Shown here: piece by piece, positions 1 through 12,088 of the stretch
Numbering within the stretch: position 1 is the stretch's first letter
How the letters are laid out: every line of letters starts with the position of its first letter
Origin: Alcaligenaceae bacterium
Lineage (GTDB): Bacteria > Pseudomonadota > Gammaproteobacteria > Burkholderiales > Burkholderiaceae_B
Direction: 5' to 3'
Length of the DNA: 12,088 nucleotides
Assembly (NCBI GenBank): GCA_029265335.1
Contig: JAJUJN010000026.1
Location: forward strand, 1-12,088
Translations under genes and position numbers: made by a program
The notes under the pieces: generated by a model
What the model saw: only the letters and a program-made list of their open reading frames with translations
What the model was told of the DNA's origin: nothing
Databases searched by the model: none

Positions 1-738
1 AACCTGGCGCTGGCCCTGGCGGCCGAAGGCGCACGGGTGGGAGTGATCGACGCCGATATCTACGGCCCCAGCCAGCCCACCATGCTGGGTGTCACGGGCA
101 AGCCACCCAGCAAAGATGGGGCCACGATGGACCCCCTTCAAGGGCACGGGTTGCACGTGAATTCCATTGGTTTTTTTGTGGAACCCGAAACCCCGATGGT
201 GTGGCGCGGCCCCAGGGTCACGCAGGCCCTCGAGCAGCTCCTGCGTAAAACCAACTGGGACAACCTCGATTACCTGCTGGTGGATATGCCGCCGGGCACG
301 GGCGACATCCAGCTCACCCTGTCGCAGAAAGTGCCGGTAGCGGGAGCCGTGATCGTTACCACTCCGCAGGATATCGCGTTGATCGACGCCCGCCGAGGGT
401 TGCGCATGTTCGAGAAAGTCGGCATTCCCATACTCGGCATCGTCGAAAACATGGCCATGCACGTTTGTTCGAACTGTGGCCATATCGAACATATCTTTGG
501 TGAGGGCGGGGGCGAGCGCATGGCTCAGCAATACGAGGTCTCCTGGTTGGGCGGTCTGCCCCTCTCGCTGCCCATTCGTGAGCAAACCGACGCCGGCCGA
601 CCCACAGTGGTTGCGGCGCCCGATAGCCCCGAAACTGCTGCCTATCGTGCCATTGCACGGCGCCTGGCGGGGCGCATTGCCGTCCAGGCGCGCGACATGT
701 CTTCGCGCTTTCCCAGTATCGTCGTACAAAACACCTGA
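1..738 (+). CDS. apbC: Mrp/ApbC family Fe-S cluster carrier ATPase, 5' end missing
   Basis: This is the 3' part of an Mrp/NBP35-family P-loop ATPase, which in this family carries or transfers iron-sulfur clusters to apoproteins in the cytosol. The reading frame is open from base 1, so the start codon, the N-terminal DUF59-like domain found in many members and the Walker A loop lie upstream; 245 residues are visible. Seen here are the segment DADIYGPSQP, typical just after the P-loop, the family signature DMPPGTGD (bases 283-306), and the CxxC pair as CSNC (bases 466-477), which in the family binds the bridging cluster between two subunits. The GEGGGE segment follows shortly after. The stop lies 3 bases before tamA, suggesting co-transcription. 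The family identity is very secure; the precise client proteins cannot be told from sequence. Confidence 0.95.
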   Translation, partial: NLALALAAEGARVGVIDADIYGPSQPTMLGVTGKPPSKDGATMDPLQGHGLHVNSIGFFVEPETPMVWRGPRVTQALEQLLRKTNWDNLDYLLVDMPPGTGDIQLTLSQKVPVAGAVIVTTPQDIALIDARRGLRMFEKVGIPILGIVENMAMHVCSNCGHIEHIFGEGGGERMAQQYEVSWLGGLPLSLPIREQTDAGRPTVVAAPDSPETAAYRAIARRLAGRIAVQARDMSSRFPSIVVQNT

Positions 739-741
739 GCC

Positions 742-2694
742 ATGGCAGCAAACGCCCAGCTGCGTTTCGGCTTGCTGGTCTGGGTGCTGGCATGCCTGCT
801 CATGGGATGTGCCGCGCGCGTAAATCAGCCAGACGCTGAAGGCGTGTCGAAGGCTGCCGCCCCACCCAATGCTGTCCCCGAGGTCACCATCGACCCAGGA
901 GGCGTGCCTCCCGCCGTGCTCCAGGCGGTTACCTCGTCGGTCACGCGCATTGCCCAACTCTCACAAGACCAGGACGGGGGCGAGATCGAGCGACTGCGAC
1001 GGCGCGCGCGCGATGTCACCATTGCCGCGCTCGCTACCGAAGGCTACTTCAGCCCGCACGTCACGCTCGAGGCCAACGTTGATCAGTTTGGTGAAACCTG
1101 GGACATCGTGATCCGGCCCGGTGAGCGCGCCACCATCCGCGAGGTCGATATTGTTTTTGAAGGCGCCATCGCGGGTGAGGCATTCGAAGAACGCCGGCAG
1201 CGCTTGCTGCGCGATTGGAGTCTCCGAGAAGGCGCGCCCTTCCGCAACGATGAGTGGGAATCGGCCAAACGAGATCTTCTGGGCAGCGTGGCAGGCGTCG
1301 ACTTCGCCTTGGCCCGCATCACTCACTCGCGAGCCCTGGTGGATGCGCCCGCGGCCGCGGTGGATCTCGACGTGGTGGTGACCAGCGGGCCGCAGATTCT
1401 GCTGGGCGAGCTCGAAACCGAGGGTTTCGACAAAGTCCCTTCGTCGTTGGTGTCACGCTATGTGCGCTATCAGCCGGGCAGCACGCCTTACGACCGCCGA
1501 CAACTGGTGAGCTGGCAGCAGGAGCTGCAGCGAACGGTGTTTTTTTCGGCGATCGACATCAACCTCGAAACTCGCGAGGTGGTGCGACAGATCGACGCCA
1601 GCGCCGTTGAAAGCGCCCCCCAGATCGGTACGTCGGCCGCCACAGTGGCCGAAGCCACCGGTACCGATGCGCCGCCACGCACCGGGCGGTTCGCTCGCTT
1701 CATGCAGCAAGAGCAGGCGGTGGTGCCGGTGAAGGTCACGGTGACCGAGGCCGACCGCCATCGTCTTGATCTCGGTCTGGGCATCGACAGCGACGTTGGC
1801 CTGCGGGCCGAGGCGATGTACCGCCAGAACGTGGTGTTTGGCCGGGCCGTGGAATTGCAAACAGGGGCGGGCATCGACCGCAAGCGCCAGATGGCTTTTG
1901 CCGATGTGCTGCTGCCACCGAACAGTCGGGGTTACCGCGACAAATTCGGTCTCTTGGCTGAACACACCGACATCGAGGGCCAGGACGTGCGCAAGGTTGC
2001 CGGTGGCTGGGTGCGCAGCCAAACCCGTCACGCCGCTGGCGATAGCCGGGTGCAGTTCGAAACCAACCTGAGTGTCACCGCCGGCTACGAAAAAGTTCGC
2101 TACGGCAACGTGGCCTACGATCTGCCGTCGATCGTGGGGGCCTGGGAATGGTTGCGACGCGATGTCGACAACCGCTACAACCCCCGTTCCGGCAACGTGG
2201 TGGCGTTCGGCGTGGGAGCGGGTACGGCGCTGGATGGCTTCGAGCCTTTCACTCGCCTGCAGGCCCGTGGGCAATATTGGTGGCCCATCGGCGAACGAGA
2301 CCTGCTCACCGTGCGTGGCGAGGTGGGCAAAGTGTGGACGCACGGCAGTGCCAATATTCCGGCAAACTTCGGTTTTCGTACCGGGGGCGCCCGAACCATT
2401 CGCGGATATCGGTATCTCAGTCTGGGTCGCGACGTCGGCGACGCCGTAATTGGCGCCAACGCCTTGGCGGTGGCCAGCATCGAGTATCAGCATTACTTCA
2501 CCGATATGTTCGGGGTTGGGTTTTTTGTGGATGCTGGCGATGCGGCCGAAGACTTCCGCGATATGGACATCGCTGTGGGCGTGGGTACCGGCCTGCGCGT
2601 GCGCACGCCGGCGGGCCCGATCTTTGTCGACCTTGCCTACGCGACGCGTGACAAGCGTTTGCGTTTGAGTTTCTCACTGGGAATCGCGTTTTGA
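742..2694 (+). CDS. tamA: TamA, Omp85-family outer membrane translocation/assembly protein
   Basis: A 650-residue Omp85/BamA-superfamily protein. TamA works with TamB to insert or transport outer-membrane and autotransporter proteins. The N-terminus is an export signal; POTRA-like repeats fill roughly residues 85-285 (for example VDIVFEGAI near 135 and the GELETEGF turn near 222). An Ala/Thr-rich stretch near 285-325 precedes the C-terminal barrel from about 335 to 650. The barrel contains the conserved Omp85 loop-6 motif as GGARTIRGY (R554-G555-Y556) and ends in a terminal phenylalanine, as expected for a BAM substrate. It is somewhat longer than E. coli TamA (577 residues). Oddly, residues 20-23 read LMGC, a lipobox-like site, so the protein may be lipidated. 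The ATG follows the mrp stop by 3 bases with no clear ribosome binding site, suggesting translational coupling; the next in-frame Met (21) would destroy the signal peptide. The adjacent tamB confirms TamA over BamA. Confidence 0.93.
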   Translation: MAANAQLRFGLLVWVLACLLMGCAARVNQPDAEGVSKAAAPPNAVPEVTIDPGGVPPAVLQAVTSSVTRIAQLSQDQDGGEIERLRRRARDVTIAALATEGYFSPHVTLEANVDQFGETWDIVIRPGERATIREVDIVFEGAIAGEAFEERRQRLLRDWSLREGAPFRNDEWESAKRDLLGSVAGVDFALARITHSRALVDAPAAAVDLDVVVTSGPQILLGELETEGFDKVPSSLVSRYVRYQPGSTPYDRRQLVSWQQELQRTVFFSAIDINLETREVVRQIDASAVESAPQIGTSAATVAEATGTDAPPRTGRFARFMQQEQAVVPVKVTVTEADRHRLDLGLGIDSDVGLRAEAMYRQNVVFGRAVELQTGAGIDRKRQMAFADVLLPPNSRGYRDKFGLLAEHTDIEGQDVRKVAGGWVRSQTRHAAGDSRVQFETNLSVTAGYEKVRYGNVAYDLPSIVGAWEWLRRDVDNRYNPRSGNVVAFGVGAGTALDGFEPFTRLQARGQYWWPIGERDLLTVRGEVGKVWTHGSANIPANFGFRTGGARTIRGYRYLSLGRDVGDAVIGANALAVASIEYQHYFTDMFGVGFFVDAGDAAEDFRDMDIAVGVGTGLRVRTPAGPIFVDLAYATRDKRLRLSFSLGIAF

Positions 2695-5600
2695 TTCATG
2701 CCGTCAAGCGCCCGCCACGGGGATTTGTGGTGGGCTTGTTGTTGATCCTGATGGCCGCGGCCAGCCTGCTGTTGTTTCTGGTAGGTTCGTCGTATGGGGC
2801 AGCGGTGGTGCTCCGGGTTGCCATGGCCCTCGGAGGCGAGGGCTACGCCGCTGGCGTCTCGGGTTCTCTCTACTACGGTTTGCAGGTAGAGCGCCTGGAG
2901 TTCCGTGGCTTCGATCTTTCCATCGAGGCCGACGACCTCCGCTTTGAGGTGAATTGGCCGGCTCTGCTCGATCGCCGGCTCGATATCGTGGAAGCCTCGG
3001 TACATCGACTGATACTCGATTTGCCCCCGGCTGCGGAGCCCGACCCTAACGAACCCTTCCGTATCCCTGACATGCCGCAGTGGCCCGACCTCCCCATAGG
3101 GGTGAGCGTGCAACGGCTGGCGGTGAACGAATTGAGATTGGGGCGCGAGGGTATCGCGATGCCGATCGAGGTGGATCAGGCAGCGCTGCACGCCAACTTG
3201 AACGCCGACGGCCTGGTATTGGGCCTGGAGGGCATCGAGGTACGCGCGCCCGACGCCAGCTTGCATGCGCACGGGCAAATTCTGCTCGGGCCGGCCACTG
3301 CAGCCGCGGACGACACTGCCGCAGCGGCGGCGGCTGATGAAGAAGCGCCCGCCATTCACGCTGCCGACGCGGCAGCTCCTGCCGAGAATGCGCCCACCGT
3401 CGACGCCAAATTGGTGTTGTCGATACAGCAGGGCGACGAATTCGCCCGTGTGAACCTTGCCGCGCGAGGTACCCTCGCCGACCTGCAGGTGGAGGCCGAC
3501 GGCTCGGGTTACTCACTCAACTTACAGGCCACGGCCAAAGTGGCACCGTTTTCCGAAACCTTGCCAGTCTCTGCGCTCACGCTCAAGGTCGAGGGATTCG
3601 AGCCATCGGCCTGGATGAGCGCGGCGCCGGCCGCCCGTTTGAATGTGGCCCTGGATGCCCAGTTCGAGGGCGCTCTGTGGCCCGAGGGCCAATTCGGCAT
3701 CCCGCAACCCGAAACCCTGCGCACGCAACTGCAGTTAGACGTGCTGGAAGGCAGCACCTGGCGTGGCGAACCGTTCGTGGGACAGGTGCGCTTGCATCAG
3801 GATGGCTGGCGACTGCCCGAGGTAGTCACTGATCTTCGTCTGGCAAGCAACCATGTGTCGCTCAACGGCGCGGCGGGTGCCACAGACGATGTGATCGACT
3901 GGCGGGTGCAATTGCCGCAACCAGCCGCGATTTGGCCGGGGCTGGTCGGCGGCGCCGATCTTTCGGGTCGCTGGCGGGGCATGCCGACAGATCACGAGTT
4001 TTCGCTCGAAGGCACCGTGACTCTGCCACCCGGGATGTTGCCGGAAAACATGGGTGGCGCCGGCGTCAGCGCACGCGAGCTGATGCCTTTCGACACCGAG
4101 GCAGATTCGGCTGGCGGTGTGGTGGTAGACGGTAACCAACTTGGCGATGCCACCGAGATCGCGCCCGCCATTGATGTATTGACCATTCTGGGGCAGGGGC
4201 CTCATCGGGTAGCGCTGACCTTGCAAGGTGGTTGGCAACCGGGTCACGCCGCAGGCGCTGCTTCAGCTGCCGATGGTGGGGCAGCGGGGAGCGTAGCGGC
4301 GGGCTGGCAGGGCCGCATTTCGCGTCTGTCTCTGACCAATCCACAGACCTCGATTCAGCTTGGCGAGCCCCTTGCGTTGGCCGTAAGGCTGCCGAGCCCC
4401 GTAGCGCCCTTGCATTGGGAGGCTGGCGCCACCACGATCACCTGGAATCTTCCCGACGATCGCCGCATCACCCTGCAGCACGAGGGCTCGCAAGGCACTG
4501 GCAGCGAATGGCAGACGGCCGGCCGAATCCAGAATTTGGTGCCCGCCTGGGTGGTGGCCGCCTTGCCGCGCAATGCCGACCCTCTCACGGTTGACCTCGC
4601 CTGGGATCTCGAGCAGGCCGGGAACCTGAGGGGAACCTTCCAATTGCGCCGACGCAGCGGTGATATCGTGCTGCCGGCCGAAACACCGATTGCGCTGGGC
4701 CTGGAGGCGCTGCAGCTCGACTTGCGGGCCACGCCGCGCGCGGCCAACTCCAGCGACCTGAACTTTCAACTCGATGTGCGGGGCAGGGTGCTGGGTTCAG
4801 TCAGCGCCAACGGCAGCACGGTGTTGCAGGTGCAAAATGGCGTGCCGATCATCACCGAAGCACAGCCTGTCGCCTTGAATGCGCAGCTGGCCATCAACGA
4901 CCTGGGCTGGACAGTGGCCTTCACTGGCGACGAAATCGAACTGGGCGGTCAGTTGCGTGGCGATGTGTCGCTGCAGCGTACTGGTGGCAATTGGGATGCC
5001 TCGGGAGCTCTCGAGGCAGAAGGTTTGCGGGTGGTGCGTATCGACGACGGCATCCGGCTGCTAGACGGCAGCCTGAGGGCCCGCTTCACGCAAGACCGCA
5101 TCGATGTCGAGTCGCTGCGTTTTCCCAGCGTCATTCGTTCCACCCCTCGCAATGCCGCCGTGCAGGCCTGGGTGGAACAATTCGGCGATGCTGGCTATGT
5201 GCAGGCGTCGGGAGGTTGGTCATTGAGCGAGGCGCAGGGTCGAGCCACCGTGGAGATCTCGCAGTATCCCCTGGTGCAGCGGGCGGATCGCTTCATAGCG
5301 GGTTCGGGGCAGGTACAGATCGAAGCTTCGCCGCGCCGCATGTCGATCACGGGCAAGGTAACAGCCGATATCGGCTGGATCAGCCTGGAAGGTAGCGACG
5401 AACTGCCCTCACTGTCGTCCGACGTCGTGATCGTGCAGGCCAACGACCCGCCGGACGATTTCCGGGATCAAGCGGTGGGGTCGGAGAACAATGAACCCTT
5501 GGCCTTGCGCTTGAACCTCGAAGTAGACCTTGGCAATCGCATGATGCTCACCGGTATGGGTTTGAATACCGAGCTGGTGGGCGCCATCAACGTGCGTAAC

Positions 5601-6251
5601 TCGCGGGGAGGCCTGCGCGCCACCGGCGTGGTGAACACGCGTGAAGGTCGTTTCAGCATCTACGGGCAGACCCTTGAGGTGCGCCGCGGCACTGTCACTT
5701 TCGATGGGCTGCTCGACGACCCCTTGCTCGATATCGTGGCCGTGCGACCCCACCTGCAAGTGCAGGCGGGGGTGCAGGTGAGCGGCACGGCAAGAGCGCC
5801 CGAAATTTCGCTCATCTCGTTTCCCGATGTGCCGGAAACCGAGAAGCTCAGTTGGCTGCTGCTGGGCCGAGGGCCCGATGCTCATGGCGCCGATACCGGT
5901 TTGCTGCTTTCGGCTGCGGCTTCGATGCTGGGCGGCGATCAGCCGCTATCGAGCGAGCTAGGCCTGGACGAGTTGGGTTTGCGCTCGGGTACGGGCGGCA
6001 GCATCAGCGGTATTCTGCCTCACACGACTGTGGTGGGTGACTTCAACGAGCTGAGCCGAGGCGATGAAGCCGGTCAATTCCTCGTGGCGGGCAAGCGCTT
6101 GTCGGATTCGCTGTATGTGACCTTCGAGCAGGCGCTGAACGGGCGCGAGGCTGTGGTACGGGCCAGTTATCGGATCTCGGAACGGCTCAGCGCCTCGATA
6201 CAGGGGGGCACCATCAATGGCCTGCAGCTGGTGTGGTCATTGATTTGGTAG
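2691..6251 (+). CDS. tamB: TamB, AsmA-like/DUF490 inner-to-outer membrane bridge protein
   Basis: An 1186-residue TamB. The family is anchored in the inner membrane, spans the periplasm as a long beta-taco groove, and partners TamA; recent work also links it to phospholipid transport. Seen here: a basic start, one signal anchor (about residues 11-33), a long repetitive amphipathic beta region, and the C-terminal DUF490 domain (about 850-1186). Typical family segments there are VVNTREGRFSIYGQTLEV, a GTVTFDG strand, DDPLLDIVAVR and ETEKLSWLLLGRG. The length is close to E. coli TamB (1259). An Ala/Asp/Glu-rich insertion lies at 200-235 and a Gly/Ala-rich low-complexity stretch around 445-540. 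The start chosen is TTG, overlapping the tamA stop as TTGA. This frame has no ATG nearby, and the alternative GTG codons (2727, 2730) would remove the basic residues preceding the anchor. The gene ends convergently, 13 bases from the opposing minus-strand gene, with no room for a dedicated hairpin terminator. Confidence 0.92.
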   Translation: MIHAVKRPPRGFVVGLLLILMAAASLLLFLVGSSYGAAVVLRVAMALGGEGYAAGVSGSLYYGLQVERLEFRGFDLSIEADDLRFEVNWPALLDRRLDIVEASVHRLILDLPPAAEPDPNEPFRIPDMPQWPDLPIGVSVQRLAVNELRLGREGIAMPIEVDQAALHANLNADGLVLGLEGIEVRAPDASLHAHGQILLGPATAAADDTAAAAAADEEAPAIHAADAAAPAENAPTVDAKLVLSIQQGDEFARVNLAARGTLADLQVEADGSGYSLNLQATAKVAPFSETLPVSALTLKVEGFEPSAWMSAAPAARLNVALDAQFEGALWPEGQFGIPQPETLRTQLQLDVLEGSTWRGEPFVGQVRLHQDGWRLPEVVTDLRLASNHVSLNGAAGATDDVIDWRVQLPQPAAIWPGLVGGADLSGRWRGMPTDHEFSLEGTVTLPPGMLPENMGGAGVSARELMPFDTEADSAGGVVVDGNQLGDATEIAPAIDVLTILGQGPHRVALTLQGGWQPGHAAGAASAADGGAAGSVAAGWQGRISRLSLTNPQTSIQLGEPLALAVRLPSPVAPLHWEAGATTITWNLPDDRRITLQHEGSQGTGSEWQTAGRIQNLVPAWVVAALPRNADPLTVDLAWDLEQAGNLRGTFQLRRRSGDIVLPAETPIALGLEALQLDLRATPRAANSSDLNFQLDVRGRVLGSVSANGSTVLQVQNGVPIITEAQPVALNAQLAINDLGWTVAFTGDEIELGGQLRGDVSLQRTGGNWDASGALEAEGLRVVRIDDGIRLLDGSLRARFTQDRIDVESLRFPSVIRSTPRNAAVQAWVEQFGDAGYVQASGGWSLSEAQGRATVEISQYPLVQRADRFIAGSGQVQIEASPRRMSITGKVTADIGWISLEGSDELPSLSSDVVIVQANDPPDDFRDQAVGSENNEPLALRLNLEVDLGNRMMLTGMGLNTELVGAINVRNSRGGLRATGVVNTREGRFSIYGQTLEVRRGTVTFDGLLDDPLLDIVAVRPHLQVQAGVQVSGTARAPEISLISFPDVPETEKLSWLLLGRGPDAHGADTGLLLSAAASMLGGDQPLSSELGLDELGLRSGTGGSISGILPHTTVVGDFNELSRGDEAGQFLVAGKRLSDSLYVTFEQALNGREAVVRASYRISERLSASIQGGTINGLQLVWSLIW

Positions 6252-6264
6252 CCCGCGGCCCTCG

Positions 6265-7566
6265 TTATTCAAATCGCCAGGTGAGCGACAGCATGGTGCT
6301 CAGCTCGCGATAGTCGAACAAGGGGATGCTGGCTTTTTGACGCACAGCCAGCAGGCTCCACCCTACGCGCCAATCGCGATTGAGGTTCACCGACAGCTCG
6401 GCACCAGTCTGCCATCGGGTGCGGATATTGCGCCGATTGGCAAACAGGGGGCTATAACCGGCGCCATCACGCGCGTGCAACACACCGGCGTTCAGTTCCA
6501 GCCGGGGCACCCAGCCCCCAACCGCGGGCAGCGTTCGATCGTGGCGCAGATCGAAGGCGTAGCGGGTCTGGCTTTTGCCAGCGCGTTCACTTTGGGGCGA
6601 GTCGTATTCGAAAGAGGCGTTGGCTCGCCATTGATGGCTGAGCGGCACACGGGCAGCCAGACGGGTGGTGTACCAGCCGGCGCCATCGCGAGGCTTGCGA
6701 CGTTCGATCGCACCACGCAGCACTGCGCCTTCGGGGCTCAACTGATGTTCCAACCAAAAGCCGGCAGCCCGCAAACCGCCCAGATAGCCCTCATTCACCG
6801 TCAACGCCAGCAAGCCGGCACGCGAGCGGGCGTTGAGGCCAAAACGCTCAAGACCAAAGCGTCCCAAGCCCATGCCCACTTCGGCGTAGCCGGCCACCAG
6901 AGCCGGCAGGCTGGTATCGAAAGGTCGGCGGCTAAGGGCATCGACACGAATATTGAAATCGTGCAGCGGCCACACGCTTTGGTAAGACAATGCCGCTTCG
7001 GCCAGGCCGCCACCGCGCTCACGATAGCCTTCATCGAGAAAGGCTCGCACTTCTACGCCGTCGAGCAGCAGCGTGAGGTCGTCGGCGCTGGTGGCCCGCA
7101 GCAAGTTGGTGCTCGCGCCCAGGCCCACTCGTATCTCACCTTGCTGCACGCGCAATACGTTGCCCAGGGTTTGACGCAGGGCGGGAGGCAGGCCGAACTG
7201 TTCGATGGCGCTGGCCAGAATATTGCGACAGCCGGTGGGGTCGCCCAGATCGCAGAGCGTTACTCCGTAATCGAACCAGGCGCCAGCAAACTGCGGCGAC
7301 AGCAGTAAGGCCTGCTCGAAGGCCAAAGATGCCTGGTGCAGGTCGCCGCGCGCTCGGGCATCCAGCCCGGCTTCATAGCTGGCCAAAGCCGCTGGTGAAG
7401 GCGACGATGGAGGCAGGGCAGGCTCGCCTGCCGTAGCAGTGGGCAGGCTCGCGCCAAGACTTCCCATGGTGAATGCTGCAGCCCCTAGAGCCCGCCCGAC
7501 AACGCGCTGCAAAATCGCAGCCACGGCCCGGAGGTGGATGAAAGGCTTGGCGTTAGGGGAAGTCAC
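6265..7566 (-). CDS. TPR plus outer-membrane barrel protein, Slam-like (type XI secretion translocon candidate)
   Basis: A 433-residue exported protein with the two-part layout of Slam/T11SS translocons. After a weakly hydrophobic signal region (about 25-47, possible cleavage near TATAG) comes a TPR segment (about 58-135, with helix pairs such as SYEAGLDARARGDLHQASLA). From about 143 to the end there are alternating amphipathic strands typical of an outer-membrane barrel. The C-terminal strand pair, NRDWRVGWSLLAVRQKASIP followed by LFDYRELSTMLSLTWRF, resembles my recollection of the DUF560/SlamB ending, where an S-N-I-P-like turn and a Tyr-Arg pair precede the last strand. Slam proteins move TbpB-barrel cargo across the outer membrane, and the FecR gene two upstream may be such cargo. 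The start is GTG, overlapping the preceding gene's stop as GTGA. It is a little shorter than characterised Slams (about 490 residues). The alternative is a generic TPR-porin of unknown function. The TPR-barrel layout is secure; the translocon role is inferred. Confidence 0.72.
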   Translation of the reverse strand: MTSPNAKPFIHLRAVAAILQRVVGRALGAAAFTMGSLGASLPTATAGEPALPPSSPSPAALASYEAGLDARARGDLHQASLAFEQALLLSPQFAGAWFDYGVTLCDLGDPTGCRNILASAIEQFGLPPALRQTLGNVLRVQQGEIRVGLGASTNLLRATSADDLTLLLDGVEVRAFLDEGYRERGGGLAEAALSYQSVWPLHDFNIRVDALSRRPFDTSLPALVAGYAEVGMGLGRFGLERFGLNARSRAGLLALTVNEGYLGGLRAAGFWLEHQLSPEGAVLRGAIERRKPRDGAGWYTTRLAARVPLSHQWRANASFEYDSPQSERAGKSQTRYAFDLRHDRTLPAVGGWVPRLELNAGVLHARDGAGYSPLFANRRNIRTRWQTGAELSVNLNRDWRVGWSLLAVRQKASIPLFDYRELSTMLSLTWRFE

Positions 7567-9503
7567 GAGAGCGAAGCGGCGGCAGGGGCTAGGGGTATCG
7601 GCCAGTCGTAGGCGGGAAGATGAGTGAGAGTGTAAAGCGCCATCACACGAGTTGCATCCAGTTGCAGTTTGGCAACAGGCTGGGTGGCGTCAGGAGGGAG
7701 AGCTTCGGCCACGGTCTGACTGAACAAGAGCGGCCAGGGGTGGAGGCGGGTCTGGCGCTCAATGTGTGCAGCCAAATTGGCGGCTTCGCTCACGACGGTG
7801 TAGCGTTTCTGACCTGAACCAAATGAGCCCAGCAGATAGGGGCCGGCGTGGATGCCGATACCGATGGCCAGCGGCGGCAGGCCCTGAGCGGCGAGCTCAC
7901 GGTTCACCGCCGGCAAGCCAGCCAGAATGGCGCGGGCTGCCGCTGCCGCGGCAGCGGCCTGCTCGATGTCGGAACCTTGGCGCCACAACAGCAAAGCGCC
8001 ATCGCCAGCCACGTTATCGAGCAAGCCGCCTTGATTTTGTGCATTCTGAATAATGTGATCGATGCCGCGATCGCACCAAGTAGCCACCTGACCCAGGGGC
8101 AGCGTGCGCGAAACCCGCGTGTAGCCCAGGATATCGGCCACCAGAATCGTGCCCCACCCGGTTTCGTCGGCGATGCGCAAGCCACCGCCAGTCAACAGGC
8201 GGCGCAAGGGTGGCGGAAGATAAGGCTCGATTCGCTCGAGCACCGCACGACGCTCACGGACAGCGCCATGAGTCATGAGCAGGGCAGTGGCGCTGAACGC
8301 AAAGAACAGCGGCGGCGCAAACGGCAGCATGATGTGATTGAGATGCCACGCCAGCACCACTGCCACGATCAACATCAGGCATGCCAGCCCACCCGCCCAG
8401 GCCACCCTTCGCGGTTGTGACGCCACCAGCATCAAGCCCACGGCCACCAGGGCCGCCAACATCAGCGCCAGGAGCGGGGAGTGCCGGGGTTCATAGGGGA
8501 GAGCATCGGCCAGCCATCCCTGCATGAGGTGGGCGTGCACCTCCATGCCGGGCACCGTGCGTTGCAATGGCGAGGTGGCGATGTCCCCCAGGCCCAGGGT
8601 AACGCCGCCAAACAACAGAATGCGCTGACTCAAGGCACCTGGCTCAAGGTTGTCATCCCAGAGGTCGGCGGCGCTGAAATAGGGGAGCCAGGGCTCTGCT
8701 TGCCAAGGAATCCAGCTCTGCAGATGCTCATCGAGAGGAATCGTCAACTCGGGCAGGCCTGCCGGGCTCAGCATCCAGGCCGGCTCCAGGGCGTACCATC
8801 GGCCGCGCCGCAGCTGCCAGTCGGGCGAACCCAGCAAGACATCCATCATGGCCAGAGCCAGACTTTGCGAGCAGGTGTCGGGCGGCGTCTGGCACAGCCA
8901 TGCGGGGGCTTTGCGCATGACCCCATCGGGGTCGATCACGGCATTGATGTGCCCCACTGAGCTGCTCTGGGCGAGCGGGGGCGCGTTGGCCAGCACACCC
9001 GAAAAATCGGGAAGCTGGGCTTCGATGCGGCTGGCGGCTGAGCGGTTCGGGGTGGAGGGCAGGGGAGTCCAGACTGGCAGGCCGCGATCCACCGGTTCGG
9101 GCAGCAGCAACTGACCGATCACGCTGGGCCCCTGCGCCAGCACCGAGGCCAGCTCTTGGTTGCCGACGCGCTGGCTGGGGTCGACGGGAAACACCACGTC
9201 GAGCGCCAGCAGAGCAGGTTCATGACGTTGCCGTACACCGGCCAGCAATTCGGCCCAAACGCTGCGCGGCCAGGGCCAGGGGCCCATTCGGTCGATGGCG
9301 GCTTCATCAAGCGCGATCAGCGTGATGGGCGTGGTCAGCGTGGGGGGTTCCGACTGCAAGAGCATTGCCTGCAAGCGGGTGTCGAGCGAGCGGGCTACGT
9401 TGGGCAGCAGCCAATAGGCTGCCAGCAGCAGCATCAAGGAAGGCGCGAGCCAGCGTCGCCAGACCGAAGACCGCGTCTCGCTGGGCGAGGAACGGCGGCT
9501 CAC
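7563..9503 (-). CDS. CHASE2 sensor membrane protein with class III adenylate/guanylate cyclase domain
   Basis: A 646-residue membrane signalling protein. One N-terminal membrane segment (about 19-37) leads into a periplasmic CHASE2 domain (about 40-335) with family-like pieces: IALDEAAIDRMGPWPWPRS, LALDVVFP, VGHINAVIDPDGVMRKAP and PGMEVHAHLMQGWL. Three membrane segments follow (about 343-361, 367-388, 394-412), then a cytosolic class III nucleotide cyclase domain (about 448-625). Both metal-binding aspartates are visible (D457 in VADILGYT, D501 in AGDG), as is the transition-state Asn (N576). By eye alignment the substrate-selecting Lys is Asn (N497), the matching Asp is Arg (R567), and the transition-state Arg of NLAAR is His (H580). 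It may therefore be weakly active, altered in substrate, or a non-catalytic nucleotide-binding receiver. The GTG start lies 5 bases after the FecR gene stop without a clear ribosome binding site, suggesting coupled translation. The CHASE2 ligand is unknown; the FecR partner and the barrel protein are candidate periplasmic inputs. Confidence 0.9.
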   Translation of the reverse strand: MSRRSSPSETRSSVWRRWLAPSLMLLLAAYWLLPNVARSLDTRLQAMLLQSEPPTLTTPITLIALDEAAIDRMGPWPWPRSVWAELLAGVRQRHEPALLALDVVFPVDPSQRVGNQELASVLAQGPSVIGQLLLPEPVDRGLPVWTPLPSTPNRSAASRIEAQLPDFSGVLANAPPLAQSSSVGHINAVIDPDGVMRKAPAWLCQTPPDTCSQSLALAMMDVLLGSPDWQLRRGRWYALEPAWMLSPAGLPELTIPLDEHLQSWIPWQAEPWLPYFSAADLWDDNLEPGALSQRILLFGGVTLGLGDIATSPLQRTVPGMEVHAHLMQGWLADALPYEPRHSPLLALMLAALVAVGLMLVASQPRRVAWAGGLACLMLIVAVVLAWHLNHIMLPFAPPLFFAFSATALLMTHGAVRERRAVLERIEPYLPPPLRRLLTGGGLRIADETGWGTILVADILGYTRVSRTLPLGQVATWCDRGIDHIIQNAQNQGGLLDNVAGDGALLLWRQGSDIEQAAAAAAAARAILAGLPAVNRELAAQGLPPLAIGIGIHAGPYLLGSFGSGQKRYTVVSEAANLAAHIERQTRLHPWPLLFSQTVAEALPPDATQPVAKLQLDATRVMALYTLTHLPAYDWPIPLAPAAASLS

Positions 9504-9508
9504 AGACG

Positions 9509-10837
9509 TTAAGGGCGACCCCAGACCACGATACCGGACAGCTGGCCATCGTCGAATTGACGTTCGACGGTGGTAATGGCGGAATCGAGATCTTTGCCGA
9601 GGGCGCCGGTGACACGGGCATTGGACAGGGCAGGGTCGGAGCGCAGGAAGCCCTGCGCGTTGATGGTGCCGCTGGCTTGGGTGTGAAACTCTCGGGCGCC
9701 ATCGGTGAACTCGGCGTGGGTGTCGAAGCTGCTGCGGTCGAAATCCACACCCAGGCGGCCCGAGGCCACGCTAAGGGCTGCGGAGCTGTCGGCGCCCAAC
9801 CAGACCCCTTCGCCCCCCGCCGCGACGAAATCGGCGCGCCCACTGCGCGGCAGTTGGGTGGCTCGTTCGTTGAAGCCAGCACCGTACTGAGTGTTGACCA
9901 CATGCACCTCTTTGCCTTCGCTCAAGAGGTCGCTCACGCGCTGAACGGTAGCGCCGTCGACGGCCTCAGCCGAGCTCCAACGCCCCCAGTGCACCCCCTC
10001 GGGCATGGCGATGTCGTTGGCGCTGGGCGGCGGCGGCTCGACTGGCGTGGGCGACACGGGCGTGCCCCCGGTTTCTACGCCCACGGTAACGCTGACCTCG
10101 CCTTCGCGGGTATCGGGCAGCGATTGGGAACTGTTGACGCGGGGCTCATCGGCGTGGGGCGGAGCCAGTTGATCGGGTGTTTGCTGAGGGTCTTCTACCA
10201 GCCGCGGCAGTTGCTCGCCGCGCACCACTTCCACGAACTGCCCGGGCAGGCTATCGGTCTTGCCCAGCACCACGGCGCCGTCGGCACAGGAGCCGAAGCT
10301 GGCGGCCGAGCAGTGTTCGCCCAAGGCGGCCACCACCACTGCGCCGCTGTTGATGGCCACGCGAGAAGCCGAGGAAGTGGTGGCGACCACGAAATCGGTG
10401 CCGCGTACCCCTACGGCTGCCACCGGCGTGTTGAGACGAAAGGCTTCTTTGTTGACTTCGCCGACGCCACCGGTGATGGCTCTTGCCACGCCTTCGTCGA
10501 GCCGGTAGCGTACGCGGTCGTTGTGCGCGCTGCCTTCATACTGAAAAACTTCGATTTCGAATACAGACAGGGGCCGCACCGCCACCAGACCGCCGTCGGC
10601 CATGCGCACGTGGGCAAATCCGCCTTCGCCAGTGACCAGAGTTTGGCCGGCCTCGAGCGTGGCGCCGCGTTGCACCGGTTCACGGTGTTGCTCACTTTTG
10701 AGGTACACCGGGCCGGCAGCCAGCACGACTTCGCCGGCGGGAGGCGCGGCGCTGACAACGCCCGAAAGCAAAGGCAGGGTGCATACGGCGGCCAACAGGC
10801 CGCGCCAGGCGAGCGAAGGGGCATTGAAATTGCGCAT
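9509..10837 (-). CDS. Secreted FecR-domain protein with TbpB-like C-terminal barrel segment
   Basis: A 442-residue exported protein. The Sec signal is residues 1-30 (basic start, LLAAVCTLPLLSGVVSA, likely cut before APPAG; no lipobox). The FecR domain spans about 35-165, with GATLEAGQTLVTGEGGFAHV, RPLSVFEIE and the hallmark NTPVAAVGVRGTDFVV. Two cysteines (176, 184) could form a disulfide. A Pro/Thr-rich linker (about 215-275) leads to a segment beginning HWGRW (283-287). The last 110 residues alternate like an eight-stranded barrel, with GVDFDRSSFDTHAEF, ASGTINAQGFLRSD, NARVTGALG and a terminal LSGIVVWG, recalling the TbpB barrel domain. It is not a classical FecR anti-sigma regulator: there is no membrane segment after the signal and no sigma factor gene nearby. 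I chose ATG at 10837 because GAGGA lies 4 bases upstream and a signal peptide follows directly; an upstream ATG at 10915 would fall inside the promoter. It is the first gene of a three-gene unit. Confidence 0.85.
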   Translation of the reverse strand: MRNFNAPSLAWRGLLAAVCTLPLLSGVVSAAPPAGEVVLAAGPVYLKSEQHREPVQRGATLEAGQTLVTGEGGFAHVRMADGGLVAVRPLSVFEIEVFQYEGSAHNDRVRYRLDEGVARAITGGVGEVNKEAFRLNTPVAAVGVRGTDFVVATTSSASRVAINSGAVVVAALGEHCSAASFGSCADGAVVLGKTDSLPGQFVEVVRGEQLPRLVEDPQQTPDQLAPPHADEPRVNSSQSLPDTREGEVSVTVGVETGGTPVSPTPVEPPPPSANDIAMPEGVHWGRWSSAEAVDGATVQRVSDLLSEGKEVHVVNTQYGAGFNERATQLPRSGRADFVAAGGEGVWLGADSSAALSVASGRLGVDFDRSSFDTHAEFTDGAREFHTQASGTINAQGFLRSDPALSNARVTGALGKDLDSAITTVERQFDDGQLSGIVVWGRP

Positions 10838-10841
10838 GAAA

Positions 10842-10846
10842 TCCTC
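10842..10846 (-). promoter_or_regulatory. Ribosome binding site GAGGA of the FecR-domain gene
   Basis: On the minus strand the sequence reads GAGGATTTCATG, placing a Shine-Dalgarno core 4 bases before the ATG at 10837. It fixes the start of the FecR gene 26 codons inside the longest open frame. The two downstream genes of the unit show no comparable site and seem to depend on coupling. Confidence 0.75.
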
Positions 10847-10905
10847 GGGGGTGCCGCCGGCGCACGAATTGCGACCTGCAAACAGAGTGGCCGGGGCTCC
10901 GCGCG

Positions 10906-10934
10906 ATGCTACCATATACGGTCACGCCTGAAAA
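10906..10934 (-). promoter_or_regulatory. Predicted sigma-70-type promoter of the FecR-CHASE2-Slam-like unit
   Basis: Reading the minus strand, a -35 element TTTTCA (10929-10934) is separated by exactly 17 bases from a -10 element TAGCAT (10906-10911) preceded by TGG, which makes it an extended -10. Both hexamers match consensus at four of six positions. Transcription would begin near 10899, giving a leader of about 60 bases before the ribosome binding site and ATG. A perfect 10-bp palindrome overlaps the -35 element. Confidence 0.5.
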
Positions 10935-10942
10935 CGGCCGTT
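10933..10942. promoter_or_regulatory. Palindrome AACGGCCGTT at the -35 of the FecR promoter
   Basis: A perfect 10-base inverted repeat, without spacer, overlaps the first two bases of the predicted -35 element (10929-10934, minus strand) and extends upstream of it. Its position fits an operator for a dimeric regulator. It is short and GC-rich at its centre, so chance occurrence is possible. No regulator gene lies in the window. Confidence 0.3.
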
Positions 10943-11000
10943 GACTTTTAGCGCAGATTCTGCTGGAATGGTGGGCTTTGCGAAATCTCGGCCCACGTTA

Positions 11001-11031
11001 TTGGGGCATGCACGATTTGGGGCATGCACGA
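11001..11031. repeat. Tandem direct repeat, two copies of TTGGGGCATGCACGA
   Basis: The 15-base unit TTGGGGCATGCACGA occurs at 11001-11015 and again, identical, at 11017-11031, giving a period of 16 bases (about one and a half helical turns). Each copy contains the palindromic core GCATGC. The array lies between the FecR promoter and the candidate rpmH promoter and could be a regulator site or a replication-slippage product. Confidence 0.8.
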
Positions 11032-11117
11032 GAATGCTTGGGTGAGTGCCCGCGCAATACCCCACTTTATACTCGCGCTTACTCGGGTGAGCAGCTCTGG
11101 GCGAGAATGCCTGGGTG
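11029..11117. repeat. Repeat pair CGAGAATGCYTGGGTG flanking the rpmH -10 candidate
   Basis: CGAGAATGCTTGGGTG at 11029-11044 recurs as CGAGAATGCCTGGGTG at 11102-11117, identical at 15 of 16 positions and 73 bases apart, about seven helical turns. The first copy overlaps the end of the tandem repeat. The candidate rpmH -10 element at 11068-11073 lies between the copies. The meaning is unknown. Confidence 0.7.
11068..11073 (+). promoter_or_regulatory. Candidate -10 element of the rpmH operon
   Basis: TATACT matches the sigma-70 -10 consensus at five of six positions and would start transcription near 11080, about 90 bases before rpmH. No good -35 hexamer is seen at 16-18 bases upstream, so either the promoter relies on an activator or this is not the true element. 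Strong expression is expected for a ribosomal protein gene. Confidence 0.35.
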
Positions 11118-11167
11118 CCGCAGTTTTCGCGGGTGTTCTTTTCTGATTCTTTTATCTGGATGTTGTC

Positions 11168-11302
11168 ATGAAGCGTACTTTTCAGCCTTCTGTCGTTCGC
11201 CGCAAGCGTAATCATGGTTTTCGTGCGCGCATGAAGACTCGTGGTGGCCGAGCAGTGATCAACGCGCGCCGCGCCAAGGGCCGCAAGCGCCTCGCTGTCT
11301 AA
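11168..11302 (+). CDS. rpmH: 50S ribosomal protein L34
   Basis: A complete 44-residue L34, beginning [20 protein letters not shown] and ending AKGRKRLAV, with the very basic composition and the [10 protein letters not shown] core that are nearly invariant in bacteria. L34 sits in the large ribosomal subunit in contact with 23S rRNA. A weak GGAT motif lies about 8 bases before the ATG. It heads the conserved rpmH-rnpA-yidD cluster and is divergent from the FecR unit. Compared with common versions, Val at position 10 and Ala at position 20 are mild variants. The identity is certain. Confidence 0.98.
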
Positions 11303-11355
11303 GAGGCACGCACAAAGGCACGCCCACAGCACCACAGCGATCATGGGCGCGAGTC

Positions 11356-11865
11356 ATGCCCGATTCCGTCAGCTCGGAGCCCAATCCCACCCAATCTGCA
11401 GAGCGAGTGGCGAATACGCACGTTCGCCTGGGTTTGCCACGCACGGCCAGGCTGCGCAAGGCGGCCGAATTCCAGGCTGCACTGCGCCGCGGCAAGCGTA
11501 TCGGCCGCAGTTCGCACTTCGTACTCATCCATCTTGCCCCAGCCCCCACCGCTGAACTGTCTGATGCCAGTTGCGGAGCGCGCCTGGGCCTGATCGTGGG
11601 CAAGCGCCACGCGCGCAGGGCGGTGGATCGCAATGCGGTCAAACGGGTTTGGCGCGAAGCTTTTCGTGCACGCCGTGCTGGCCTGCCCGCCGGCGATTAT
11701 GTGGTTCGCCTGGCCGCCAAGCTGCCCGAGCTCAGTCAGGGTCTGCTCAAGCGCCAGCTGCGCGCCGAAGCCGACCAGCTACTGGCTCAAACGAACGGCA
11801 AAGGGCGTTCGAGACGCAGCCAGAAGGCCGCTGGATCGCCTCGCGCCGGCTCGCGGTCAACATGA
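11356..11865 (+). CDS. rnpA: Ribonuclease P protein component
   Basis: A 169-residue RNase P protein subunit, which helps the catalytic RNA remove 5' leaders from precursor tRNAs. The family core runs from about residue 26 ([20 protein letters not shown]) through FVLIHL and [20 protein letters not shown] to the RNR-motif helix ([16 protein letters not shown], 92-107). It is longer than usual (typically 115-135 residues), with about 25 extra residues before the core and a basic, probably disordered tail after about 145. If a later start is used (for example GTG at Val18), the N-terminal extension shrinks; the ribosome binding site at 11356 is weak, so the start is moderately uncertain. It lies 53 bases after rpmH and its stop overlaps the yidD start as ATGA. 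Confidence 0.95.
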
Positions 11866-12088
11866 AACAGCGGCTGCGGCGATGGAGCGTGGCAATCTTA
11901 TTGTTGCCATTGCGCACCTATCGCTATCTGGTCAGCCCGTGGTTGCCGCCATCCTGCCGCTTTTCGCCAACCTGCTCGGCCTATGCCGAAGAGGCCGTGA
12001 GGCGTCATGGTGTGGCTCGTGGTTCATGGCTGGCTCTGAAGCGTTTGTGCCGCTGCCATCCGTTTGCCCAGGGAGGTTACGATCCTGT
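11862..12088 (+). CDS. yidD: YidD membrane protein insertion efficiency factor, 3' end missing
   Basis: The first 75 codons of YidD, a small membrane-associated protein that aids YidC-dependent insertion of inner-membrane proteins. Seen here are an amphipathic hydrophobic start ([20 protein letters not shown]), the cysteine signature [15 protein letters not shown], a glycine and Leu/Lys-rich helix, and [12 protein letters not shown], all hallmarks of the family; the window ends just where the usual DPVP segment begins. The ATG overlaps the rnpA stop (ATGA), the normal coupling in this cluster, and yidC is expected immediately downstream. Confidence 0.95.

Follow-up and report, generated by a model that had tools for sequence, protein, structure and literature searches.

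The locus and its three proteins

Three genes lie together on the minus strand of a 12,088-nucleotide stretch of Alcaligenaceae DNA, referred to here as the window (contig JAJUJN010000026.1, positions 1 to 12,088), which belongs to an incomplete Burkholderiales genome of 2.65 Mb in 543 contigs, 89% complete. They encode a FecR-domain protein, a CHASE2 membrane protein and a protein with TPR helices and a predicted outer-membrane barrel (Table 1). An earlier note on this DNA, made from the letters alone, had described all three genes and the close junctions between them, and open reading frames and sequence bear out both descriptions. Here we present evidence that these genes form a recurrent module, which we read as a candidate export pair, similar to the Slam translocons and their cargo, joined to a membrane receptor.

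The FecR and CHASE2 domains both exceed their Pfam cut-offs, and the CHASE2 domain is an extracytoplasmic sensor. The closest named relatives of the FecR protein come from metagenomes and carry the labels Pigmentiphaga (66% identity) and Verticiella (53–54%). Other parts of the first description hold less well. Secretion of the FecR protein is suggested by a signal-peptide-like N-terminus judged, like that of the barrel protein, by inspection only. The term cyclase for the CHASE2 protein calls for caution, PF00211 matching at 19.6 bits, under its cut-off of 21.9, with two atypical catalytic positions. The TPRs of the third protein match Pfam models at E 6e-5 or weaker, under the cut-offs, and its structural model has both the TPR helices and the 14 strands. 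The single promoter placed before the cassette lacks support: a sigma-70 consensus scan of positions 6000–12088 returned 0 sites (shuffle mean 0.7), a result that neither shows nor excludes one.

Table 1. Features of the three-gene cassette and their positions in the window
Feature	Position	Strand	Detail
FecR protein, candidate cargo	9509..10837	-	442 aa; PF04773 49.3 bits (cut-off 24)
FecR architecture: signal-peptide-like N-terminus, cell-surface-signalling-like domain, disordered linker, C-terminal barrel	9509..10837	-	model pLDDT (predicted local distance difference test) 87.3
FecR residues 62–230: fold of PupR C-terminal cell-surface signalling domain	10148..10654	-	
FecR residues 236–259: predicted disordered linker	10061..10132	-	pLDDT <50
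FecR residues 277–442: predicted TbpB/NHBA/fHbp/HpuA-type C-terminal barrel	9512..10009	-	
Five-base gap, FecR stop to CHASE2 start (GTG)	9504..9508	-	
CHASE2 membrane protein with class III cyclase-like domain	7563..9503	-	646 aa; PF05226 130.2 bits (cut-off 26.3)
CHASE2 domain	8439..9428	-	132.2 bits
Cyclase-like domain, bounds approximate	7704..8156	-	Asp457 and Asp501 (metal) kept; Lys site Asn497, Arg site His580
GTGA overlap, CHASE2 stop and barrel start	7563..7566	-	
TPR and 14-stranded barrel protein, distant Slam/DUF560 homologue, predicted translocon	6265..7566	-	433 aa
Barrel-protein residues 58–137: TPR helices	7156..7395	-	TPR model matches and predicted structure
Barrel-protein residues 140–432: 14 long strands, predicted outer-membrane barrel	6271..7149	-	

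Conservation of the gene linkage

Genomes were scanned with an alignment of 80 relatives of the FecR protein (A2) and the best 80 of the 435 places encoding a relative were kept; these FecR-anchored loci were picked by the FecR protein, not by its neighbours. Using a profile grown from the window protein, we found a member of the barrel family in 71 of the 80 loci, a count to be read knowing that the hidden Markov models (HMMs) for the barrel and Crp-like genes, and the queries for type I secretion, were drawn from the same loci later counted, such that adjacency did not enter the HMM fit yet members in the source loci were easier to recognise by construction. The members from L076 and L079 were dropped from the barrel alignment (A3), having stop-to-stop frames of more than 900 aa, and are kept in the 71. 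The nine loci without a barrel (L011, L013, L026, L041, L057, L060, L063, L065 and L085) are all shorter than 12 kb and cut by contig ends. A CHASE2 frame was present at E<1e-20 in 68 loci, and 64 of the 80 contained all three genes (in L010 the CHASE2 gene lies 4.8 kb from fecR). Among the 50 loci with at least 17 kb of sequence, the barrel was found in every one and the full set in 49. Gene order differs between loci: the barrel gene after CHASE2 is the commonest arrangement, CHASE2-FecR-barrel occurs in L024, L029 and L035, and in Massilia and Duganella loci a CHASE2-barrel pair is divergent from fecR. The three-gene arrangement is conserved and its linkage far beyond chance, and this small gene set recurs across beta- and gammaproteobacteria.

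Linkage was also assessed from the barrel. Of the 274 class genomes scanned with profile A3, 129 gave a match at E<=1e-8; many matches were partial and apparently limited to the TPRs. Taking the best place per genome in the top 30 genomes, the window's included, gave 29 other barrel-anchored loci, of which 20 were extended. Within a flank of 1.5 kb a FecR frame was present in 26/29 and a CHASE2 frame in 2/29; when extended to 5 kb, FecR lay directly downstream on the same strand in 18/20 and a CHASE2 gene was present in 7/20. In the window itself the CHASE2 gene sits between the other two. From either anchor, barrel and FecR genes are mostly together, where the earlier note's idea would have suffered had they been mostly apart. 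The barrel and FecR genes look like the core of the module, and CHASE2 like a frequent companion.

Barrel-FecR pairs lacking CHASE2 within 5 kb are what would be expected if the translocon merely exported the FecR protein to act as an effector, either secreted or on the surface, with CHASE2 and Crp regulating expression of the pair and sensing something else. The same may be said of L191, L193, L197 and L198, in which more than one FecR frame stands beside one Slam-like barrel gene, as if cargo had multiplied. We nonetheless consider plain export an improbable account of the cassette as a whole. Two loci hold unusual frames. In L193 (1095-4730) a frame of 1212 aa combines FecR domains with an OmpA-type outer-membrane barrel, apparently a single-chain version of FecR plus barrel. 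Behind FecR in L199 (982-3363), a frame carries two cyclic-nucleotide-binding stretches with pyridine-nucleotide oxidoreductase and ferredoxin domains, a possible alternative receptor.

Relationship of the barrel family to Slam

In Pfam the window barrel protein matches only TPRs (TPR_19 at E 6.4e-5, 23.6 bits, cut-off 25) and, weakly, one generic barrel model. TPR_19 is detected at E<=1 in 76/78 family members, and PF04575, the Slam family, in two of the 78 (best 4.6e-5). Neither the window protein nor its incomplete genome yields a PF04575 match at E<=1; formal membership was accordingly rejected, and the protein is here named Slam-like.

Comparison of profiles places the family nearer to Slam. 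The barrels of 72 family members, the window's included, align with ten PF04575 barrels at a probability of 99.3% (E 6.8e-21, 287 columns) and with nine weaker PF04575 matches at 99.75% (E 2.5e-27). The controls gave 0.9% for BCSC_C, 1.5% for PgaA and 22.6% for Porin_4 (E 9e-4), from sets that kept some short rows (one BcsC of 6 residues, one PgaA of 0, one porin of 89). Reversed alignments scored below 1% in 6/7 cases, with one at 30% (E 5.5e-4), and 0.5% against Slam. The Slam set reaches 26% with PgaA and itself matches Porin_4 at 53% (E 1.4e-4), so an E of about 1e-4 represents the noise floor in these comparisons. The window's own clade, taken alone, scores 6.8% against the Slam set and 65% against the weaker PF04575 set (E 6e-5, 262 columns); it joins the remaining family at 99.2% (E 7e-20), and that remainder joins Slam at 99.2% (E 8e-20). 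At the level of profiles, then, the barrel family appears homologous to Slam, and the window clade only through the wider family. Within that limit the grouping with SlamB/DUF560 that the earlier note had proposed is upheld, and the same comparison does not place the family among the porins or polysaccharide secretins (Porin_4, BCSC_C, PgaA). Among loci fetched with PF04575, a FecR gene was next door in 7/20, all of them weaker matches; three of those seven barrel proteins were rescanned and all pass the PF04575 cut-off.

The predicted structure consists of TPR helices followed by 14 long strands (mean pLDDT 88.9). Its best structural matches are CymA and OmpG, which are diffusion channels, and this resemblance would suit a reading in which FecR and CHASE2 are an ordinary periplasmic sensor pair and the barrel is a co-regulated porin or nutrient channel that exports nothing. 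FecR-CHASE2 pairs with no named barrel have also been published, namely the BiofilmReg operon with its LysM-FecR protein and CHASE2 kinase (PMC5192318). Slam likewise consists of TPRs and a 14-stranded DUF560 barrel (PMC5449769). The profiles argue against a porin, since the family groups there with Slam rather than Porin_4, PgaA or BcsC, as do the TPR domain ahead of the barrel and the TbpB-type barrel predicted on the FecR protein. Barrel-anchored loci point the same way, with FecR next door far more often than CHASE2 is near, a contrast qualified by the FecR-anchored loci, where barrel (71/80) and CHASE2 (68/80) differ little. We judge the porin reading distinctly unlikely.

The FecR protein as candidate cargo

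The fold computed for the C-terminus of the FecR protein is a TbpB-type barrel. This feature had escaped the first reading of the DNA and strengthens its idea. Cargo of the type 11 secretion system (T11SS) characteristically ends in an eight-stranded barrel of this type and is encoded near its translocon gene, and both traits are found here. A sequence bridge from FecR C-termini to the TbpB-type barrel reached 93.4% when cut to 190 residues and 85.7% uncut; it drew on 18/20 rows of the FecR alignment A4 and on 12/14 TbpB loci, L147 and L151 giving no residues. A4 itself omits 4/24 barrel-anchored FecR frames (two of L197, the 1212-aa frame of L193, and L194). One public protein, P0120, combines FecR with PF01298, the TbpB barrel, both above the Pfam cut-offs. 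Between the two halves of the window protein, 24 residues have pLDDT <50, and confidence stays low until about residue 270.

No lipobox was seen by eye in the window FecR protein; classical T11SS cargo has one, and soluble cargo is also reported (PMC8406197). Nor is there a cytoplasmic anti-sigma N-terminus, only a signal-peptide-like stretch (by eye) preceding the first strand at residue 35. The protein thus differs from those of the FecI-FecR-FecA and PupR systems: its FecR domain is on a protein of exported type with no room for the cytoplasmic anti-sigma part, and the gene next to fecR is CHASE2. Neither a sigma factor nor a TonB-dependent receptor was found among the six window proteins scanned, the search having been confined to these and not extended to the remaining genome or the 80 loci.

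The Crp-like regulator, type I secretion and the cyclase-like domain

The recurrent unit is wider than three genes and includes a Crp-like gene, found in 65 of the 80 FecR-anchored loci, within 5 kb in 63 and divergent, directly upstream of fecR, in 42; all ten of the Crp-like proteins scanned have cNMP_binding and HTH_Crp_2 domains. ABC genes of type I secretion occur in 34/80 loci and large proteins whose N-terminus is DUF4214-like in 46/80; where at least 17 kb of sequence was available, 43 of 50 loci have one or both. Five large proteins were scanned, of which three matched DUF4214, one RTX repeats and one nothing.

A Crp-like gene is absent from the window's contig and from the fetched DNA of the Verticiella loci L007 and L008. 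The window genome has one Crp profile match, of 267.5 bits, on another contig, and each of its two genus mates has a single strong match (263.6 and 254.5 bits; next best <=64). In all three genomes the gene stands beside ABC, HlyD and TolC-type genes, with a SapC gene near it in G000. In this genus the module appears to have been split, not lost.

The cyclase-like domain of the window protein is atypical too. Taking the positions of the metal Asp pair, substrate Lys, transition-state Asn and Arg to be those of class III cyclases, both Asp and the Asn are kept, while Lys is replaced by Asn497 and Arg by His580. Across 68 CHASE2 proteins (the window's and 67 from the loci) the metal positions are kept in 68/68 and 67/68, the sole exception being a gap, and the full canonical set is present in 18. 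The distinct sequences of the window clade (14/14) all carry Asn or Thr in place of the Lys and His in place of the Arg, a fifteenth row of the alignment being the window protein repeated. Such uniformity looks like conservation, not decay, and would therefore imply a different chemistry or a domain that relays the signal without catalysis. The idea that an atypical cyclase simply accompanies loss of the neighbouring Crp gene was not supported: in many gammaproteobacterial loci Glu occupies the Lys site and a Crp gene is nonetheless divergent from fecR, and L021 and L022 keep the Lys with no Crp-like gene in the fetched DNA.

The window's lineage may accordingly have been rewired, its cyclase-like domain serving as a non-catalytic relay and the cassette acting on something other than the Crp-like gene. 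The clade-wide substitutions beside intact metal positions favour this, as does the unlinked Crp-like gene in 3/3 genomes of the genus. Retention of that gene in all three, at 254–268 bits, tells against it, as does the frequency of atypical sites in the family at large. This seems rather unlikely, and it would be compatible with the reading that we prefer for the wider family.

Other features of the window

Tail to tail with the cassette, on the plus strand, Pfam identifies TamA-like (742-2694) and TamB-like (2691-6251) genes; the two are under NCBIfam equivalog cut-offs and make up a pair for outer-membrane assembly that shows no clear connection with the cassette. Beyond fecR, plus-strand frames at 11356-12086 are presumably rnpA- and yidD-like, and the cassette would therefore lie near the rpmH-rnpA region, which is often close to oriC. 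Rfam gave no match in the window at gathering thresholds.

Comparison with known systems

The cassette shares with Slam/T11SS (PF04575) the TPRs and 14-stranded barrel, a candidate cargo gene in the same cluster (PMC5449769, PMC8406197, PMC8560813) and a predicted cargo C-terminus of the TbpB/fHbp/HpuA fold. It differs in that the window barrel is outside PF04575 as drawn, the cargo has a FecR signalling domain as its front half instead of a ligand-binding handle, and the operon includes a CHASE2 sensor. The main text of two T11SS surveys mentions neither FecR nor a cyclase (PMC8406197, PMC12282271).

Parts of the arrangement are already known. In Campylobacterota, a CHASE2 adenylate cyclase, a FecR-domain outer-membrane protein and a TPR-domain protein are clustered and have been proposed to act as one pathway (PMC9239204); compared by description only, those clusters differ in having a phosphodiesterase, and the available text neither likens the TPR protein to Slam nor mentions a cargo barrel. 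The Burkholderia BiofilmReg operon, also from Burkholderiales, has a FecR-domain protein followed by a CHASE2 membrane receptor, although the receptor is a histidine kinase, the FecR protein usually carries LysM and the available text names no TPR-barrel gene (PMC5192318).

In Sinorhizobium meliloti the CHASE2 cyclases CyaD1, CyaD2 and CyaK need the outer-membrane barrel NsrA (PMC7529298, PMC13001267) and act through cyclic AMP and the Crp-family regulator Clr (PMC5498481, PMC7529298, PMC13001267), and the locus number of a FecR protein gene, SMc02177, directly follows that of cyaD1 (SMc02176). By analogy, this system may be taken as a precedent for an outer-membrane barrel that feeds CHASE2 cyclases and a Crp-family regulator. 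The precedent is qualified by the finding that SMc02177 is not needed for signal perception (PMC5498481), and NsrA, compared by description only, is a much larger protein with its barrel at residues 600–1200 (PMC7529298).

Among the matches listed by our literature searches, in which subscription papers are largely absent, none connects Slam or T11SS with either FecR or CHASE2, likens the TPR protein to Slam or assigns a Slam-cargo barrel to a FecR protein, and none adds Crp and type I secretion to the CHASE2/FecR/TPR cluster. Two articles, PMC11233812 and PMC13348254, contain both FecR and Slam-type words under unrelated titles.

Proposed mechanism and its implications

On balance we lean slightly towards interpreting the cassette as an export pair that resembles type 11 secretion (Slam) and is coupled to a membrane receptor. 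In this view the TPR-barrel protein would be the outer-membrane translocon and the FecR protein its cargo, recognised through the TbpB-type barrel at its C-terminus and either delivered to the cell surface or retained across it. The FecR half resembles a cell-surface-signalling domain, and its state or place could be read in the periplasm by CHASE2, the CHASE2 protein relaying that reading inward through its cyclase-like domain, probably as a cyclic nucleotide in at least some relatives. The Crp-like regulator would receive the signal and probably controls the type I secretion operon and large surface-type protein that often adjoin its gene, which may give the module a role in surface protein display. 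Two things weigh against this interpretation and lowered our confidence in it, namely the noise floor revealed by the profile controls and a report of Slam1 independence.

A bolder version, which we hold to be doubtful, is that the Slam-like barrel acts as exporter and transmembrane signalling device at once, with the TbpB-type barrel outside, the FecR domain in the periplasm and the linker running through the translocon. Surface events, such as assembly of a type-I-secreted surface layer, might then bring the FecR domain into or out of contact with CHASE2 and in this way set the Crp-controlled secretion programme. Were this true, a type 11 system would be used for signalling, with a signalling protein as its cargo.

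In a 2021 survey, nine of ten T11SS network clusters had no characterised members (PMC8406197), and the signal recognised by CHASE2 domains was described in 2016 as unknown (PMC5192318). The export-pair interpretation would give distant Slam-like barrels a concrete class of cargo and CHASE2 a protein signal, with the Crp-like regulator as likely receptor and type I secretion of large surface-type proteins as likely target, and it makes both questions open to experiment with two or three genes. It suggests that a channel for protein export may have been co-opted to inform the cell interior about the state of the surface.

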